DNA from: Spirochaetaceae bacterium
GTDB lineage: Bacteria; Spirochaetota; Spirochaetia; B11-G9
Assembly (NCBI GenBank): GCA_030633365.1
Contig: DAOVSY010000152.1
Span: 1 to 7,205, forward strand
Direction: 5' to 3'
DNA length: 7,205 nucleotides
The notes beneath the pieces were generated by a model. That model had not been told where the DNA came from, made no database searches, and worked only from the letters and a program-made list of their open reading frames with translations. The position numbers and the translations under genes are program-made. The number at the start of each line of letters is the position of its first letter. The stretch's first letter is position 1. This document shows, in pieces, positions 671 to 7,205 of the stretch.

Positions 671-762
671 CTGGTCGGGACTTCGTCCCTGCCCGGCAAT
701 GAGTTGTACCGGAAGAGCGAAGCGATGAGGAACGACCTCAGCAACCAAAGGAGAGTTAAATG
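671..762 (+). repeat. Hairpin-rich leader element, copy 1 (before leuA)
   Basis: This element shares blocks with 4505-4577: CTGGTCG at its 5' end, CGTCCCTGC in the middle, and a 34-base 3' block (729-762) that is 29/34 identical to 4544-4577 and includes the ribosome binding site and start codon. Hairpins visible here are GGGAC-TTC-GTCCC (677-689), CCGGCAA-TGAG-TTG(TA)CCGG (693-712) and TGAGG-AACGA-CCTCA (726-740). The Shine-Dalgarno AGGAG (749-753) sits 6 bases before the ATG. It may be a dispersed repeat that landed next to start codons, or a conserved 5'-UTR structure. Short minus-strand ORFs that cross it look like shadows. Confidence 0.65.
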
Positions 763-2445
763 AAAAAAATGAATTATACAAGTTACCAGGCATATCCGCT
801 TATGAAGCTGACAAACAGAACCTGGCCGGATAATCAAATTACCAAAGCACCTGCATGGAGTAGTGTAGATCTTCGTGATGGGAATCAGGCATTGGATATT
901 CCTATGAATCTGGACCAGAAAAAAAGGCTCTTCAGGCTGTTATGTGATATTGGTTTTAAAGAAATTGAGATTGGGTTTCCTTCTGCATCCCAGGTTGATT
1001 TTGACTTTGCAAGAATTCTTGTGGAAGAAAACATGATTCCCGAGGATGTAACAATTCAGGTTCTTACTCAGGCAAGGGAGCATTTAATTCGAAGAACATT
1101 TGAATCTTTGGAAGGTGTTGATAAAGCTATTGTTCATATGTACAATTCTACGTCGACTCTTCAGAGAGATGTAGTTTTTAATATGAATAAGGAACAGATT
1201 ATAAAGATAGCTGTTGATGGAGCTTCTCTTGTAAAACAGATAAGCGATGAGATTGGAAACCCGGGAATCAGGTTTGAATATTCTCCGGAAAGTTTTACAG
1301 GCACAGAGATGGATTATGCACTTGATGTTTGTCATGCTGTTATGGATGCATTAAAACCCACACCGGAAAAGAAACTTATTCTTAATTTACCTGCAACTGT
1401 GGAGATGTCTACTCCAAATATTCATGCCGATCAGATTGAGTGGTTTTGTAATAATGTAAAAGATAGAGATTCTGTAATAATCAGTCTTCATGCACATAAT
1501 GACAGGGGAACAGCTGTTGCTGCAACTGAACTGGGAATTATGGCTGGAGCTGACAGAGTAGAAGGTACTCTCTTTGGAAATGGCGAGAGAACAGGAAATT
1601 TGGATTTAGTTACAACAGCTCTTAATATTTTTAGCCAGGGTGTAGATCCTGAACTTGATTTTTCCAGTATTAATTTTATAAAAGATGAATATATGAGCTG
1701 TACCAGAATGCCTGTTCATCCCAGACATCCATATGCAGGTGATCTTGTATATACTGCTTTCTCAGGCTCGCATCAGGATGCAATTAACAAGGGTTTTAAT
1801 AAAAGAAATGAAAGAGATAATAAAATATGGGAAGTTCCTTACCTCCCAATTAATCCTAAAGATGTAGGTCGATCATATCAGTCTATTATTAGAATTAATA
1901 GCCAGTCAGGAAAGGGCGGGGTTGCATATCTTATGGATAGTGAGTTTGGATACAAACTTCCAAAGGCTATGCAGGCTGAGTTCAGCAGGGTTATTCAGAG
2001 TGTAACAGAAGAGAGTGGTTCTGAAATTTCCTCAAGAGCAATATGGGAAAGTTTTAACAGTGAATATCTGGAAATGAAAACACCATATGAACTAAAGCAT
2101 ATCAAGATTAGTATGGATTCTGACAGTGATCATGTAGCGACCGAAGAGGTCACCCTGGTTTCGGGATTGCTTAACTTTAAGGGAAAGGATATTAAGTTTT
2201 CAAGTGAAGGGAATGGACCTATAGATGCATTTATTAAGGGTTTAAACTCAACTTTAAATGAGCCTGTTAAACTTAAGAGTTATGATGAACATAATATTGA
2301 TGGTGGGTCTGATTCTTTGGCAGTTTCTTATATTAGTCTGAGAAAAGACAAAGGTTCTGTGAGGTATGGAGTAGGAACTGATTCAAATATTTCAATGGCA
2401 TCTATAAAAGCCATTGTCAGTGCTTTGAATAGATTGAGTAAGTAA
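760..2445 (+). CDS. leuA: 2-isopropylmalate synthase
   Basis: Cytoplasmic enzyme (EC 2.3.3.13) that condenses acetyl-CoA with 2-oxoisovalerate, the first committed step of leucine synthesis. The 561 residues form two parts. Residues about 30-310 are a DRE-TIM/HMGL-like barrel with LRDGNQAL (38-45, including the conserved Arg-Asp pair), LHAHNDRG (243-250, metal-binding His pair) and GNGERTGN (273-280). After a linker region comes the LeuA allosteric domain, about 440-561, with GNGPIDA (484-490) and the closing stretch GVGTDSNISMASIKAIVSAL. The N-terminal extension (YPLMKLTNRTWPDNQI) and total length fit the longer form typified by actinobacterial LeuA rather than the enterobacterial one. ATG 760 is chosen over ATG 769 because AGGAG at 749-753 is correctly spaced. 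Upstream lies a leucine attenuator, so synthesis is probably controlled by attenuation as well as by feedback on the enzyme. No leuB, leuC or leuD is visible in the window. Confidence 0.96.
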   Translation: MKKMNYTSYQAYPLMKLTNRTWPDNQITKAPAWSSVDLRDGNQALDIPMNLDQKKRLFRLLCDIGFKEIEIGFPSASQVDFDFARILVEENMIPEDVTIQVLTQAREHLIRRTFESLEGVDKAIVHMYNSTSTLQRDVVFNMNKEQIIKIAVDGASLVKQISDEIGNPGIRFEYSPESFTGTEMDYALDVCHAVMDALKPTPEKKLILNLPATVEMSTPNIHADQIEWFCNNVKDRDSVIISLHAHNDRGTAVAATELGIMAGADRVEGTLFGNGERTGNLDLVTTALNIFSQGVDPELDFSSINFIKDEYMSCTRMPVHPRHPYAGDLVYTAFSGSHQDAINKGFNKRNERDNKIWEVPYLPINPKDVGRSYQSIIRINSQSGKGGVAYLMDSEFGYKLPKAMQAEFSRVIQSVTEESGSEISSRAIWESFNSEYLEMKTPYELKHIKISMDSDSDHVATEEVTLVSGLLNFKGKDIKFSSEGNGPIDAFIKGLNSTLNEPVKLKSYDEHNIDGGSDSLAVSYISLRKDKGSVRYGVGTDSNISMASIKAIVSALNRLSK

Positions 2446-2511: not shown

Positions 2512-2543
2512 AAACTGATCACTATAATTATAGTGATCAGTTT
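2512..2543. promoter_or_regulatory. 32-bp perfect palindrome, operator or terminator
   Basis: AAACTGATCACTATAA (2512-2527) is followed without a gap by its exact reverse complement (2528-2543). It lies 66 bases after the leuA stop and 27 bases before the start of the HTH-cupin-PTB gene. TGATACTATA at 2476-2485 resembles the half-site TGATCACTATA (2516-2526) with one base missing. The palindrome could be an operator for the HTH protein encoded just downstream (autoregulation). Alternatively, as RNA with A-rich and U-rich flanks, it could be a terminator for leuA, but only four T follow and the stem is AT-rich. Confidence 0.6.
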
Positions 2544-2570: not shown

Positions 2571-4046
2571 ATGTTTACTGGTGAAAATATAAAAAAAATT
2601 CGAATTAACAGAGATATATCCCGTAAAAAGCTTGCTGATTCAATTGAAAAAGATGAACTCTATTTAAAACTTGTAGAAGAAGAAGGTCTGGAAGTTTCAG
2701 TTTCTGAGCTGTTAAAAATAGCCAATATACTTGATACTGATATTTCTTCTCTAATGGATGGGTTGGGGCTTTATGAGAAGGGAGTGGTTATTACCAGGGA
2801 AGATTCCAGGACAAGGGTTGAACGAAAAACCAGGCTGGATTATGAAAGCCTGGCACCTCATTACAGTGGCCGGCATATTGAACCATTTCTTGTGGAAATA
2901 AAGGAAAATGATATTGTGGAATACAGCTCTCACGAGGGTGAAGAGTTTCACTATGTTATGTCCGGAGTTTTAAAAATTGTAGTTGATGATAAAGAATATA
3001 TCCTGCAACAGGGTGATACCATATATTTTGATTCTTCCTTTCCTCATGCTTTGTCTGCTGTTGGAGAGAAAGTAAAAATTCTTGCTGCTATTTATAATAG
3101 TTCTTCTATGACACATTTGGCAAGAAGCAGGAAAATGGCGGATCTTATTCAGGGTGCGAAAATACAGAAAAGTGTTAATATTGTTATTGTAATTCCCAAT
3201 GATCATGCTATAGATGCTGTAAACCGGGCTATGGAAGAATTGGTTGTTGCAAATGCCTATATTATAGGAGATCCTGATAATTTTCCTGTACAGTATAAAA
3301 ATTACATAGATAATTATAAAATAATTTCAGTTGATTCATCTCAGGAGGGATTTGAGGTTGAGTGTGCTGAAAAAGGTGTTGAACTTATAAAAAATGGACA
3401 TGGTCAGATGTTAATGAAGGGTAATATCAATACTGCTGTTTTTATGAAGTCAATATTAAATAAGAAGTCCGGTATTGGGACTGGCCGGCGTTTATCTCTG
3501 GTTAGCATTTTTGAACTTCCTAAACTTAACCGGTTTATTTTTCTTACTGATCCTGGTATAAATACTGAACTAACTGTGGAATCTGATATTTCTACGTCAA
3601 AGGACATTATTCTAAATGCAATAGATGTTTCCAGAAGTATGGGAATATCAAGACCCAAGGTAGCTATATTAGATGCAAATGAAAAAACCTCAGAAAAAAT
3701 ACCAACCAGTATATTTGCAAAACAGCTTTCTGAAATGACCTGGGAAAATGCTGATGTTTTTGGCCCTCTCTCTTATGATCTGGCTCTGTATGAAGAGTCA
3801 GTAAAGGAAAAAGGTATTACCGGGAATGTAGTTGCCGGTAATGCAGACATTCTTATTGTACCTCATTTGGCTGGTGGCAATTTTCTGTATAAAGCCTGGG
3901 CTATGACCATGTCTGCAGATGTGGCAAATGTGGTCCTGGGAGCAAAGGTTCCGGTTATAATTACATCCAGAAGCGACAGTGATATGACCAAATTTCTTTC
4001 TCTATGTGCAAGTGCGGTTTACAGTGCTTATAATTCTGAAGGATGA
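2571..4046 (+). CDS. Fusion of XRE-type HTH, cupin and phosphate acetyl/butyryltransferase
   Basis: Three parts are readable in the 491 residues. Residues about 5-63 look like an XRE/Cro helix-turn-helix (IKKIRINRDISRKKLAD...LLKIANILDTDISSLMDG). Residues about 100-175 are a cupin with EYSSHEGEEFHYVMSG (metal-ligand candidates H121, E125, H127) and GDTIYFDSSFPHAL (H159). Residues about 200-488 match the phosphate acetyl/butyryltransferase family, closest to Ptb by eye: LMKGNINTAVF (282-291), LTDPGIN (325-331), PKVAILDANE (362-371), FGPLSYDLAL (397-406), GNADILIVP (423-431) and a GAKVPVIITSRSDS run (457-470). That part is as long as a free-standing enzyme of about 300 residues, and the motifs I know are present, so it may be active, exchanging CoA and phosphate on an acyl group. 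HTH-cupin proteins are common regulators; I do not recall this three-part form. GGAGG (2556-2560) lies 10 bases before the ATG. The 3' end overlaps the next gene. No acyl kinase gene is in the window. Confidence 0.9.
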   Translation: MFTGENIKKIRINRDISRKKLADSIEKDELYLKLVEEEGLEVSVSELLKIANILDTDISSLMDGLGLYEKGVVITREDSRTRVERKTRLDYESLAPHYSGRHIEPFLVEIKENDIVEYSSHEGEEFHYVMSGVLKIVVDDKEYILQQGDTIYFDSSFPHALSAVGEKVKILAAIYNSSSMTHLARSRKMADLIQGAKIQKSVNIVIVIPNDHAIDAVNRAMEELVVANAYIIGDPDNFPVQYKNYIDNYKIISVDSSQEGFEVECAEKGVELIKNGHGQMLMKGNINTAVFMKSILNKKSGIGTGRRLSLVSIFELPKLNRFIFLTDPGINTELTVESDISTSKDIILNAIDVSRSMGISRPKVAILDANEKTSEKIPTSIFAKQLSEMTWENADVFGPLSYDLALYEESVKEKGITGNVVAGNADILIVPHLAGGNFLYKAWAMTMSADVANVVLGAKVPVIITSRSDSDMTKFLSLCASAVYSAYNSEG

Positions 4047-4432
4047 ATATTCAAACAGAAATAATTTATCATATAGTTAGTTCTTCAGATTTTAAAAAAA
4101 ATGTTATAGGATATATGTACGCTCCGGGTAGTCTGTTAAGGAATGGTTATATTCACTGTGCATCCGGGGAGAAGATAACTCTTCTTGTTGCAGAAGATTC
4201 TTTTAGCAAAATTGAGGAAAGTATTTATATAATAAAAATTATTGTAAATGCTGTTTTAGTTCCGGTAAGATTTGAAGAAAGTCCTCAATTGGGCTCAGTG
4301 GGAATTATATTTCCTCATATTTATGGCTCTCTTAATCTGGATGCTGTAGAAGGAATAGGATTTCTTTCAAGATCAGGATCAAAATTCTTATGGCCCGATA
4401 CATTCTATTCAGATTTAACAAAATTTATTTAA
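4043..4432 (+). CDS. DUF952 family protein
   Basis: This 129-residue protein has no visible signal peptide. It carries the two signatures I associate with DUF952: GYIHCAS (35-41) and FPHIYGSLNLDAV (90-102), with IYHIV near the N terminus. The biochemical role of the family is not known to me; the conserved His residues (H38, H92) are candidate functional positions. Its ATG overlaps the TGA of the preceding gene (ATGA, 4043-4046). There is no properly spaced Shine-Dalgarno, since GAAGG directly abuts the ATG. Translation therefore probably depends on ribosomes finishing the HTH-cupin-PTB gene, and the two proteins should be made together. The tail after residue 105 (SRSGSKFLWPDTF...) is less conserved in my memory of the family. 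Confidence 0.88.
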   Translation: MNIQTEIIYHIVSSSDFKKNVIGYMYAPGSLLRNGYIHCASGEKITLLVAEDSFSKIEESIYIIKIIVNAVLVPVRFEESPQLGSVGIIFPHIYGSLNLDAVEGIGFLSRSGSKFLWPDTFYSDLTKFI

Positions 4433-4504: not shown

Positions 4505-4577
4505 CTGGTCGCAACTTCGTTGCAGCTCGTCCCTGCATCCAGGGGAACGATCTCAGCAACTACAGGAGACTTACATG
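4505..4577 (+). repeat. Hairpin-rich leader element, copy 2 (before the DUF438 gene)
   Basis: Second copy of the element at 671-762. It has CTGGTCG, then GCAAC-TTC-GTTGC (4511-4523), CGTCCCTGC, CCCTG-CATC-CAGGG (4531-4544), and the shared 34-base block ending in AGGAGA (4564-4569) and the ATG. The middle is about 19 bases shorter than in copy 1. The first hairpin keeps its pairing and TTC loop although two of five pairs differ from copy 1. CATCCAGGG occurs at 4496-4504 and again at 4536-4544. Confidence 0.65.
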
Positions 4578-5849
4578 AGCGAAATGATAAGAAACAATGA
4601 GGAAAAGCAGAAGATATTAAAAGAAATCGTAATGAACCTTCATGAAGGGTCTAAAGTTAAAGATGTACAAAAACAGTTTAAAGATATAATTAAAAATGTA
4701 AGCCCTGAGGAAATTGCATCAATGGAGCAGTCTTTAATTGATGAAGGAGTCCCTGTTGAACATGTTCAGTCACTATGTGATGTTCATGTTAAGGTTTTTG
4801 AAGACACTTTAGAGAAACAGAAAGTGGGTAAAGCATTACCTGGACACCCTGTTCATACCTATAAAGCAGAAAATAAACATCTTAGGACTTTGATCAGGAA
4901 GATTAAGAAGGATTTGAAGAAAGTTGTAAAGGGTGGAGATCAAGGAGCTTTTCAAGCTGTATTGACTGAATTAAAGGAAGTGGAGATTCATTTTCAGAGA
5001 AAAGAGAATCAGTTGTTTCCATTTCTGGAAGAAGTAAACTTTACAGGTCCATCCCGGGTTATGTGGGGGAAGCAGGATGAAATTAGAGTTATGTTTAAAG
5101 AGATTGATGCTGCTTTAAAAGAAGATGATATGAAAGCTTTGAAAGGCCACATTGCAAAAATTACCAAAGCTCTTACTGGAATGATATTTATGGAAGAAAA
5201 GATTCTTTTTCCTACTGCTATGAGAAAGCTTCCAGAAGATTCCTGGAAAAAAATTAGAAGAGGTGAAGGTGATATAGGCTATTCCTGGATTAAACCCGGA
5301 AACCTCTGGGATCCCAATGTTGTTAAAACAGGAGTACCGGATTTCGCAAAAGTTGCTGCGGAAGCAAGACAAGCCAGAGGTGAGGATACCTCCTCTAATC
5401 AGGGTACAGATGCAGAATCAAGTAATAGTGATAGAGAAGAAGCTGGGCAGATACCTCTCGATGTTGGTGGTTTAACAGGCATACAGTTAAATATGATGCT
5501 GAAGGTTTTACCTTTGGATATAAGTTTTATTGATGAAAATGACAGAGTTTTATACTATTCCCAGGGAAAAGAAAGGATGTTTCCAAGGAGCCCTGGAATA
5601 ATTGGCAGAACTGTTCAAAATTGTCATCCCCCGAAGAGTGCTCATATAGTACAGAAAATTGTTGATGGATTTAGAAATAAAGAAAAGGATGAAGCTGAAT
5701 TTTATTTTACAATGAACGGGCGGTTTCTACACATTAGATATTTCCCAATCTATGATGATAATGGTGAGTATAGAGGTGTTATTGAAGCCGGACAGGATAT
5801 TACTGATATCAGAGCTCTTGAGGGAGAACAGAAACTACTGGATTGGTAG
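4575..5849 (+). CDS. DUF438-hemerythrin-PAS protein, probable cytoplasmic sensor
   Basis: The 424 residues read as three modules. DUF438 covers about 10-80 (EIVMNLHEGSKVKDVQKQF, NVSPEEIASMEQSLIDEGVP). A hemerythrin-like helical bundle covers about 88-215, with candidate iron ligands in HPVHTYKAENKH (91-102), EIHFQRKENQLFP (137-149), KQDEIR (166-171) and FMEEKILFP (205-213). A polar linker (about 262-292) leads to a PAS domain, about 300-412 (LPLDISFIDENDRVLYYS, NCHPPKS at 349-355, and DITDI near the end). In the second half of the bundle the His expected in classical hemerythrins before the final EE is Met203; I believe this is usual for DUF438 proteins. There is no signal peptide, membrane segment or kinase/output domain. 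Proteins of this build are thought to sense redox state, oxygen or nitric oxide; the exact role is unknown. AGGAGA lies 5 bases before the ATG. A CRP/FNR-type site precedes the gene, consistent with anaerobic or nitrosative control. Confidence 0.92.
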   Translation: MSEMIRNNEEKQKILKEIVMNLHEGSKVKDVQKQFKDIIKNVSPEEIASMEQSLIDEGVPVEHVQSLCDVHVKVFEDTLEKQKVGKALPGHPVHTYKAENKHLRTLIRKIKKDLKKVVKGGDQGAFQAVLTELKEVEIHFQRKENQLFPFLEEVNFTGPSRVMWGKQDEIRVMFKEIDAALKEDDMKALKGHIAKITKALTGMIFMEEKILFPTAMRKLPEDSWKKIRRGEGDIGYSWIKPGNLWDPNVVKTGVPDFAKVAAEARQARGEDTSSNQGTDAESSNSDREEAGQIPLDVGGLTGIQLNMMLKVLPLDISFIDENDRVLYYSQGKERMFPRSPGIIGRTVQNCHPPKSAHIVQKIVDGFRNKEKDEAEFYFTMNGRFLHIRYFPIYDDNGEYRGVIEAGQDITDIRALEGEQKLLDW

Positions 5850-5904: not shown

Positions 5905-6183
5905 CTATTTCTCTTCTACAATAACAGTTGCGTTATAAATAATTGTACGCTTACCATCTATATCAAAAAGTACTTTATTCCCATATTCATTGGTTTCAAT
6001 ATCAAGTTTCCCCTCGTAGGTTTTAAGAAGCTGACCTGAAGATGAATAAACTTCAACTTTTCTTTCCAATCCACCTGTGTATTCAGATGTAAATGATTTC
6101 ACCGATCTTTGAAAAGATTCTCCACAACCTGAAAGGGTGGTAACTATCAGGATTGCAGCTAGAATAATAATTATTTTTTTCAT
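5905..6183 (-). CDS. Small lipoprotein, unknown function
   Basis: A 92-residue protein with a lipoprotein signal: MKK, a hydrophobic stretch (4-17) and the lipobox LSGC, so that Cys20 would be lipidated after signal peptidase II cleavage. The mature part is about 73 residues. It is probably beta-rich, with alternating hydrophobic strands (KVEVYSSSGQLLKTYEG, NKVLFDIDGKRTIIYNATVIVEE). It resembles small lipoproteins I recall from Firmicutes and phages, possibly DUF5052, but the family name is unverified. An AAAGGA Shine-Dalgarno (complement of 6191-6196) sits 7 bases before the ATG, and a good promoter lies just upstream. It faces the DUF438 gene across a shared hairpin and follows the adenine deaminase gene on the same strand. 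No functional link to either is evident. Confidence 0.82.
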   Translation of the reverse strand: MKKIIIILAAILIVTTLSGCGESFQRSVKSFTSEYTGGLERKVEVYSSSGQLLKTYEGKLDIETNEYGNKVLFDIDGKRTIIYNATVIVEEK

Positions 6184-6247: not shown

Positions 6248-7205
6248 TCACTCAGCAAAGAGTGACACAACTTTGGATGCCTTAACATCTATAAGTCCTC
6301 TGTCAGTTATTTTAAGCTCAGGACTAACGGGGAGAGTCAGGGTGCACATGGACATGATTGGATTAACATGATCGATGCCAAGCTTCTTTAACGCTTGCTG
6401 AAGTGAGGAAACATCTTTTGAAAGTTTTTCCATTGGTGCTTCGGAGAGAATACCTCCCACGGGTAGAGGAACACTTGCAAGTATTTTTGTACTGGAGATA
6501 GCACACATTCCTCCTTTATTGTTAATAACCCAACTTAATGCTTCTTTCATATCTTTAATATTATCTCCAACCAGAAGAATATTATGATGATCATGGGCGT
6601 GGCTGGTGCAAAAAGCTCCATTATGAAGCCGAACACCATCTATGAGACCCTGTGCTGTATGTGCTTCACCGGAATACCGGTCTATAACAATGGCAAGATT
6701 CACATCTAATTCGGGATTGGACCAGTTGATTAACCCTTTGGAGACTGACAGAGAGCGGAATACTGATTCAGTATAAGTATTTTTACTGTTTTTCCGCATA
6801 ATACGGCATTTGACAGTGGTTTTCCCCTCAGATCCCGGATTGACCTTCAGAATGTACATTTCATCAGAAATTGAACTTAGCGATAAATTTAAACTATCAA
6901 GAAACCCTGGATCAAATTTATGAATGGTTTTATCAACTTTCTTTAAATTAAATAAAACTCCACCCTTGTATACTGATTGAATTTTAAATTCATTTGAAAC
7001 ATCTTCCAGCAGGATAAAGTCTGCGATCTTTCCAGGTGCAATTATTCCTCTGTCCCGAAAGCCCATCCTTTTTGCAGGGGCCAGGCTGGTTGCAATTATA
7101 GCCTTCTCCAGAGAAAGACCGTTCTTCAGGGCCTTTCTTACTATATAATCCAGATGTCCTTTTTCTTCCATGATATCAGGAGGGACATCATCTGTAACAA
7201 AACAA
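6248..7205 (-). CDS. ade: Adenine deaminase, C-terminal part (5' end outside window)
   Basis: The minus-strand frame is open to the right edge (last full codon at 7204-7202), giving 318 visible residues of a protein usually near 570-600. It is an amidohydrolase-superfamily adenine deaminase (EC 3.5.4.2), which converts adenine to hypoxanthine and ammonia for purine salvage in the cytoplasm. The visible part begins FVTDDVPPD, the expected acidic metal/catalytic motif, then GHLDYIVRKAL. Next come LAPAKRMGFRDRGIIAPGKI, where the barrel closes and the beta-sandwich begins, and the C-terminal domain with HAHDHHNILLVGDN (visible residues 202-215) and LASVPLPVGGIL. The ATG at 7171 is not the start, because conserved deaminase sequence runs on upstream of it. 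The protein ends KVVSLFAE just before the lipoprotein promoter. It could be classed as AdeC; the family call is firm, but activity cannot be judged without the N-terminal half. Confidence 0.93.
   Translation of the reverse strand, partial: CFVTDDVPPDIMEEKGHLDYIVRKALKNGLSLEKAIIATSLAPAKRMGFRDRGIIAPGKIADFILLEDVSNEFKIQSVYKGGVLFNLKKVDKTIHKFDPGFLDSLNLSLSSISDEMYILKVNPGSEGKTTVKCRIMRKNSKNTYTESVFRSLSVSKGLINWSNPELDVNLAIVIDRYSGEAHTAQGLIDGVRLHNGAFCTSHAHDHHNILLVGDNIKDMKEALSWVINNKGGMCAISSTKILASVPLPVGGILSEAPMEKLSKDVSSLQQALKKLGIDHVNPIMSMCTLTLPVSPELKITDRGLIDVKASKVVSLFAE

Follow-up and report, generated by a model that had tools for sequence, protein, structure and literature searches.

The 7,205-nucleotide stretch of DNA analysed here (the window; contig DAOVSY010000152.1 of assembly GCA_030633365.1, from a Spirochaetaceae bacterium) carries a gene whose product joins, on a single polypeptide, an XRE-type helix-turn-helix (HTH) domain, a Cupin_2 barrel and a phosphate acyltransferase domain of the phosphate butyryltransferase (Ptb) type. 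This join is genuine; it is old, widespread and occurs across several bacterial groups. The reading favoured here, at slightly better than even odds (about 0.55), is that the fusion is an active phosphotransacylase of a distinct Ptb subfamily that would work with a butyrate-type kinase, its HTH-cupin half serving as a sensing or oligomerising front.

Architecture, spread and origin of the fusion

The gene (positions 2571-4046, forward strand) is a single open frame of 491 codons with an ATG start, a GGAGG upstream and no internal stop. Pfam recognises PTA_PTB (87.5 bits against a cut-off of 24) and Cupin_2 (52.5 bits against 27.2) in the window protein; HTH_3 reaches 18.5 bits, under its cut-off of 23, which, like the acidic recognition helix, departs from an earlier note made on this DNA from the sequence alone. 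NCBIfam phosphate butyryltransferase models span residues 187-486 with scores far under their cut-offs (NF004472, 215 bits against 399; TIGR02706, the phosphate butyryltransferase equivalog, 208.3 bits against a curated 410.5). The AlphaFold2 model of all 491 residues has a mean pLDDT of 86.7 and a pTM of 0.83, with helices at 4-63, strands at 81-176 and the Ptb part extending to 489. Within the linker, M180, T184 and R/K185 are frequent in the fusion family, and the stretch itself is mostly missing in standalone XRE-cupins. The three-part fusion on one polypeptide is confirmed, and the unbroken frame, the full-length third part with Ptb motifs (residues 187-491) and the short linkers described in the earlier note all hold.

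A search with the window protein returned at least 657 proteins at E<=1e-10 among 8000 candidates scored (best 120 listed), and one from a Deferribacterales member at least 444 at E<=1e-20 among 7994 (best 120 listed); together, the matches listed comprise 168 distinct proteins, 161 of them at least 480 residues long. Their source names include Spirochaetes, Chitinivibrionales, Deferribacterales, Calditerrivibrio, Deltaproteobacteria and Geomonas limicola, the link to Deferribacterota, Calditerrivibrio and Geomonas being made through protein source names only. From the 161, 73 members were aligned (67 after thinning at 80% identity and six added); they are 92-45% identical to the window protein, and PTA_PTB is matched in all of them at E<=1e-3. 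Among 27 loci from genome contigs, 14 carry the fusion (12 spirochaete and two Desulfurellales/Desulfurellaceae records, L006 being cut by the contig start), and in the other 13 the match is limited to the N-terminal part. By genome, and counting the genome on which each set is centred, the fusion is present in 8/8 of the order of G002, 4/26 of the order of G010 and 7/193 relatives of G013; of 296 genomes sampled evenly from the phylum of G002, two have it, one being the centre, and it is absent from 329 genomes of the phylum of G526, a set without a positive control. Genomes G001-G014 have one copy each, that of G006 being cut by its contig.

These counts dispose of an assembly join or frameshift between two genes, which the earlier note had named as the finding that would undo it: nothing was found in its favour, and the listed full-length relatives (at least 161), the presence of the fusion throughout the order of G002 and the single 491-residue model at that pTM leave it a negligible probability. 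The architecture is frequent in sequence databases, but the usual source names ("phosphate butyryltransferase", "phosphate acyltransferase", "cupin domain-containing protein") mostly follow one part of the protein, so that half of each is ignored. In line with the earlier note, which knew of no such protein, no paper describing an HTH-cupin-Ptb fusion was found in the open-licence literature searched, where a microcompartment paper (PMC4207490) was all that came up; the words "cupin" and "XRE" do not occur in the accessible portion of PMC2700814.

In a tree of 79 Ptb domains, a hand-chosen sample of 43 of the 73 fusion members, 14 shorter members (some truncated by short contigs) and 22 canonical Ptbs, a single branch of length 1.47 and support 100/100 separates the fusion and shorter members from all canonical ones. 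With the listed relatives full length and the Ptb domains in a single clade apart from canonical Ptbs, the fusion is an old one, probably of single origin; one fusion event followed by some losses of the front would be the simplest reading of a tree whose drawn root is the midpoint. Four seemingly complete Ptbs without HTH-cupin (P0184 and P0186-P0188) form a group (99/99) nested among the fusions, P0186 lying on a 34-kb contig and the other three on contigs of 1.6-2.0 kb, and P0179 (387 residues), inside the fusion clade, has HTH and Ptb with the cupin missing. All five appear to be secondary losses of the front.

The Ptb domain and its kinase partner

The phosphotransbutyrylase of Clostridium acetobutylicum (CaPTB, PDB 7vg9) is 31-33% identical to the fusion Ptb but belongs to a different clade, and the fusion adds the N-terminal HTH-cupin. 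In the alignment, D217, K228, N250, K254, S279, R280 and D282 of CaPTB correspond to D403, K414, N437, K441, S466, R467 and D469 of the window protein; these coenzyme A (CoA)/phosphate-site residues are invariant in 73/73 members, and a dead Ptb as the principal explanation is rejected because of this invariance. The loss of active-site residues, which the earlier note had set as a second way to be wrong, is thus not what the alignment reveals. The CaPTB stretches MSHVA, TDVAFN and NVMYKTL read LSLVS, TDPGIN and NFLYKAW in the fusion, and the equivalent of Lys186 is not placed with certainty in the window protein. A set of 21 canonical Ptbs has 34 columns with at least 90% conservation, of which the fusions keep 20, partly keep nine and have lost five. 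Many columns are conserved in the fusions only (among them R306, R307, N370, W391, Y402, Y407, W443 and T446), which suggests a different acyl pocket, whose acyl group is not nameable from the columns.

Other Ptb-type domains with partners provide points of comparison. The bifunctional enoyl-CoA hydratases/phosphate acetyltransferases of the PRK08190 type likewise place a partner at the N-terminus of a Ptb-type domain, which is a MaoC-type hydratase there and HTH-cupin in the fusion. The PTA domain of the hybrid malic enzyme MaeB is reported to have no catalytic residues and to serve as a sensor of acetyl-CoA (PMC7902834). In the alignment, the Escherichia coli MaeB domain has VHVLTPI where the fusion has IITSRSD and does not keep the SR motif; the catalytic residues lost in MaeB are thus retained in the fusion.

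In one group, the fusion is tied to a kinase. In 7/7 loci around the Desulfurellales (L036-L042; two genomes are Desulfurellales/Desulfurellaceae and five are relatives), it directly follows a kinase ORF, which scores 477 and 458 bits in L056 and L053 against a butyrate kinase (buk) equivalog cut-off of 289.1 and is read from sequence likeness in the other five. By PF00871, each of the seven genomes has exactly one acyl kinase, and it adjoins the fusion; the only other PTA_PTB match, absent from G322, is an ORF of 693-774 residues in the remaining six, a length like that of hybrid malic enzymes. Four of five chosen relatives lacking the fusion have no acyl kinase, and in the fifth (G310) an acetate kinase adjoins Pta. 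Together, the invariant site residues and a sole acyl kinase adjoining the fusion in all seven genomes argue for a working Ptb rather than a dead sensor.

In four of these seven genomes, the fusion stands at the end of a 2-oxoacid:ferredoxin oxidoreductase (por) operon: L056, L057 and L059 are arranged as XRE-cupin, PorG, PorD with an NAD(P)-binding domain, PorA, PorB, buk and fusion, and L058 holds the last five genes of this order, its first ORF being cut. The constant unit is nevertheless buk and fusion, because the por genes are absent beside the pair in L053-L055 and in G014, which has its XRE-cupin and por genes at another site that lacks buk (L094). What precedes buk and fusion in L053-L055 is a DUF815-type AAA ATPase (identified for L053), with a phosphoglycerate-mutase-like ORF further upstream. 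A standalone XRE-cupin heads the por genes at 2998-7827 of L056 and at 4193-9029 of L094, and the por delta subunit is joined, as annotated for L056 only, to an NAD(P)-binding protein resembling the glutamate synthase small subunit.

The HTH-cupin front

Standalone XRE-cupins (HTH_3 and Cupin_2) have the domain order of the N-terminal half of the fusion and share its cupin H/E/H residues, and several of these kin adjoin 2-oxoacid:ferredoxin oxidoreductase genes. H121, E125 and H159 are invariant in the 73 fusions, and their equivalents are found in 26, 27 and 26 of 28 standalone ORFs. All three align with identical letters of hydroxypropylphosphonic acid epoxidase (HppE), where they are the iron ligands, giving a two-His one-Glu triad; it is thus probable that the barrel uses these residues to bind a metal or ligand, and the earlier note had suggested a carboxylate or a metal. 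HppE, which likewise carries HTH and cupin on one protein, is the best Protein Data Bank (PDB) match by sequence for the N-terminal part and the top cupin row by fold. This raises the question as to whether the cupin could itself be an HppE-type mononuclear iron enzyme acting before or after the Ptb step, in a fusion of two enzymes. The triad and these matches are in its favour; however, H/E/H is common to nearly all standalone XRE-cupins and is thus a mark of the family rather than of an enzyme, and the stretch of HppE with its substrate-binding tyrosines falls in an alignment gap against the fusion, so that a two-enzyme protein is highly improbable. HppE also lacks a Ptb; by the fold comparison in PMC3406030, it uses the XRE-type fold within an enzyme.

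The HTH differs from that of the standalone proteins, mostly lacking their recognition-helix pattern and being acidic there. Among the 28 standalone ORFs, position 28 is S/T in 23, position 33 is S in 18 and position 36 is E in all; among the 73 fusions, position 28 is D/E in 51, with S33 in 8 and E36 in 35, and the window protein, with D28, K33 and E36, departs from the standalone pattern. The mean charge of the recognition stretch (28-42) is -3.36 in fusions against -0.82 in standalones, and that of the HTH (1-60) is -2.29 against +2.43 (Mann-Whitney p ~2e-8 for each, relatedness ignored); as the 28 include several near copies and two ORFs from the broken-frame contig L027, these p-values overstate independence. 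HTH_3 is recognised in all 12 standalones picked for comparison.

A paired control is offered by G014, G321, G322 and G323. For the standalone XRE-cupin of the por genes, the recognition stretch is identical in all six pairs, whereas in five of the six that of the fusion is 0.33-0.60 identical, with the Ptb at 0.71-0.89; the sixth fusion pair is nearly identical throughout. A recognition helix lagging the rest of the HTH is seen in the two G321 pairs only (0.33 against 0.70-0.72). This control lends no support to a fixed operator read by the fusion in the Desulfurellales group. Regulation of transcription by the fusion is possible, but is not the best-supported reading because the HTH mostly lacks the standalone recognition pattern. 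Of the "regulator-enzyme fusion" of the earlier note, the enzyme half thus has the better case and the regulator half the weaker one.

Beyond the por operons, standalone XRE-cupins adjoin oxidoreductase-like ORFs in L015, L016, L018 and L027 (read by eye) and other enzymes in L017, L020, L021 and L093. At 7965-16235 of L027 (Desulfothermus okinawensis), the frames of the XRE-cupin and oxidoreductase genes are broken, perhaps by sequencing errors.

Weighing the explanations

In the favoured model, a Ptb would have been fused once to the C-terminus of an XRE-cupin of the kind that adjoins 2-oxoacid:ferredoxin oxidoreductase genes. The fusion would catalyse acyl-CoA + phosphate <-> acyl-phosphate + CoA and, with a partner butyrate-type kinase, would interconvert acyl-CoA, acyl-phosphate and free acid, with a yield of ATP or, in reverse, uptake of the acid; the substrates would most likely be acyl groups derived from 2-oxoacids, such as branched-chain ones. 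In most members, the HTH would no longer read a fixed operator and, together with a metal-binding cupin, would form an oligomerising, ligand- or metal-sensing front tuning the enzyme. Architecture, ligand and active-site conservation, the single Ptb clade and the kinase linkage in one group are the parts of this model taken from sequence; activity, acyl substrate, cupin ligand, allostery and the loss of DNA binding are inferred. Were the enzyme active and tuned in this way, a regulator would have become the allosteric domain of a neighbouring enzyme, the reverse of the route taken by BzdR, in which an enzyme became the sensor of a regulator, and the step from acyl-CoA to acid in Desulfurellales-type genomes would be missed when only canonical ptb-buk pairs are sought.

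Several observations weigh against this model. On the enzyme side, Glu285 of CaPTB is replaced by Met472, canonical columns are lost at 338, 343, 373, 453 and 480, strict conservation in the canonical set does not extend to D403 and D469, the domain scores under the equivalog cut-offs, and the stem of 1.47 changes per column places the subfamily far from canonical Ptbs. None of the 13 spirochaete genomes scanned has an acyl kinase adjoining the fusion, the closest on a shared contig being about 400 kb off (G509), and all 13 have a separate Ptb-type gene. On the side of the front, the HTH charge is above zero in 10/73 fusions and HTH_3 is recognised in 48/73 at E<=1e-3, the model shows a folded HTH, and the three G014 pairs match at least as well over the recognition stretch (0.53-0.60) as over the whole HTH (0.43-0.45). 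In the clade of the window, the recognition helix is nearly constant, a palindrome stands upstream of the fusion, and purifying selection acts on the HTH (mean dN/dS of 0.085, compared with 0.059 overall, from six sequences with a mean dS above 1, near saturation).

Part of this would suit a trigger enzyme of the PutA type, an active Ptb whose HTH binds DNA and controls its own and other acyl-metabolism genes by acyl-CoA, acyl-phosphate or metal status. To the folded HTH under purifying selection it adds the standalone kin adjoining oxidoreductase or ligase genes in several loci and an inverted repeat, AACTG(A/G)TCAC-n9/10-GTGATCAGTT, just upstream of the gene in the window, L001 and L003. Across the order (eight genomes), the fusion gene of G001 and of G003 is the only place with the exact pattern, and a dispersed repeat as its source is therefore rejected. 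However, the arms are separated by 9 bp in L001 and 10 bp in L003, and the exact pattern was not found in G002 and G004-G008, where a diverged repeat could escape the pattern search; the RNA of 2500-2575 folds at -25.7 kcal/mol (z -4.3) into a strong hairpin, so that the repeat is perhaps no operator of the fusion protein. The palindrome may serve as operator for the fusion protein or for some other regulator, or may be a hairpin of the leader/5' UTR; a leuA terminator is unlikely because L001 has the repeat without leuA upstream. With a recognition helix that is acidic, mostly lacks the standalone pattern and differs among members of the Desulfurellales group, whose por operon begins with a standalone XRE-cupin, a trigger enzyme is unlikely for the family and possible chiefly in the window's own clade.

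A regulator with an enzyme-derived sensor, in which the Ptb would bind acyl-CoA without turnover and steer the HTH-cupin, would account for the long stem and the many fusion-only residues and has precedents in the MaeB domain and in BzdR, which like the fusion couples a DNA-binding-type domain (an XRE-type HTH) to an enzyme-derived one, resembling shikimate kinase and handling acyl-CoA (PMC3602430). BzdR has lost enzymatic activity and kept DNA binding; the opposite is suggested for the fusion. The loss of catalytic residues characteristic of such sensors is not seen, S466, R467, D469 and the four other site residues being invariant unlike in E. coli MaeB, and the sole acyl kinase of the Desulfurellales group has no other short PTA_PTB partner, all of which makes this reading quite improbable. 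Rather unlikely, too, is an active Ptb that reports flux: through its HTH-cupin, it would form mixed dimers with the XRE-cupin that regulates the oxidoreductase operon, or would still bind its own palindrome in spirochaetes, so that acyl-CoA turnover and the metal or ligand state of the cupin set the expression of the pathway that makes the acyl-CoA; a Ptb would then double as a co-regulator without an operator-reading helix of its own.

The remaining features of the window are listed with those of the fusion in Table 1. The gene leuA lies directly upstream of the fusion in the window, L003, L007 and L008, a hint of branched-chain acyl metabolism. Downstream, the four-nucleotide ATGA overlap suggests translational coupling of the DUF952 ORF to the fusion; L001 and L006 also have this ORF next to the fusion; in L002-L005 it was not seen. 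In the window as in L001-L005, the fusion is followed by the DUF438-hemerythrin-PAS gene, and that a redox/oxygen sensor adjoins a metal-type cupin may be no accident.

Table 1. Features of the window and the basis on which each was assigned.
Feature	Position	Strand	Basis and remarks
leuA, 2-isopropylmalate synthase	760..2445	+	Pfam/NCBIfam; 125 bp upstream of the fusion
Perfect 32-bp palindrome AAACTGATCACTATAATTATAGTGATCAGTTT	2512..2543		immediately upstream of the ribosome-binding site; 27 bp between its end and the ATG
HTH-cupin-Ptb fusion gene, 491 aa	2571..4046	+	ORF, Pfam/NCBIfam, relatives, AlphaFold2 model
XRE-type HTH, residues 1-64	2571..2762	+	Pfam, model, charge comparison; recognition-helix stretch 28-42 acidic, net charge -5
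Cupin_2 barrel, residues 80-176	2808..3098	+	Pfam, alignment, model, HppE alignment; candidate metal ligands H121 (2931-2933), E125 (2943-2945), H159 (3045-3047)
Linker, residues 177-186	3099..3128	+	comparison with standalone XRE-cupins
Ptb-type phosphate acyltransferase domain, residues 187-491	3129..4043	+	Pfam, NCBIfam, alignments, fold match; active-site motif SRSDS at 466-470 (3966-3980)
DUF952 ORF	4043..4432	+	Pfam; overlaps the fusion stop by 4 nt (ATGA)
DUF438-hemerythrin-PAS protein	4575..5849	+	Pfam
Small lipoprotein-like ORF	5905-6183	-	counterparts in L001-L003
Adenine deaminase, cut by the window end	6248-7204	-
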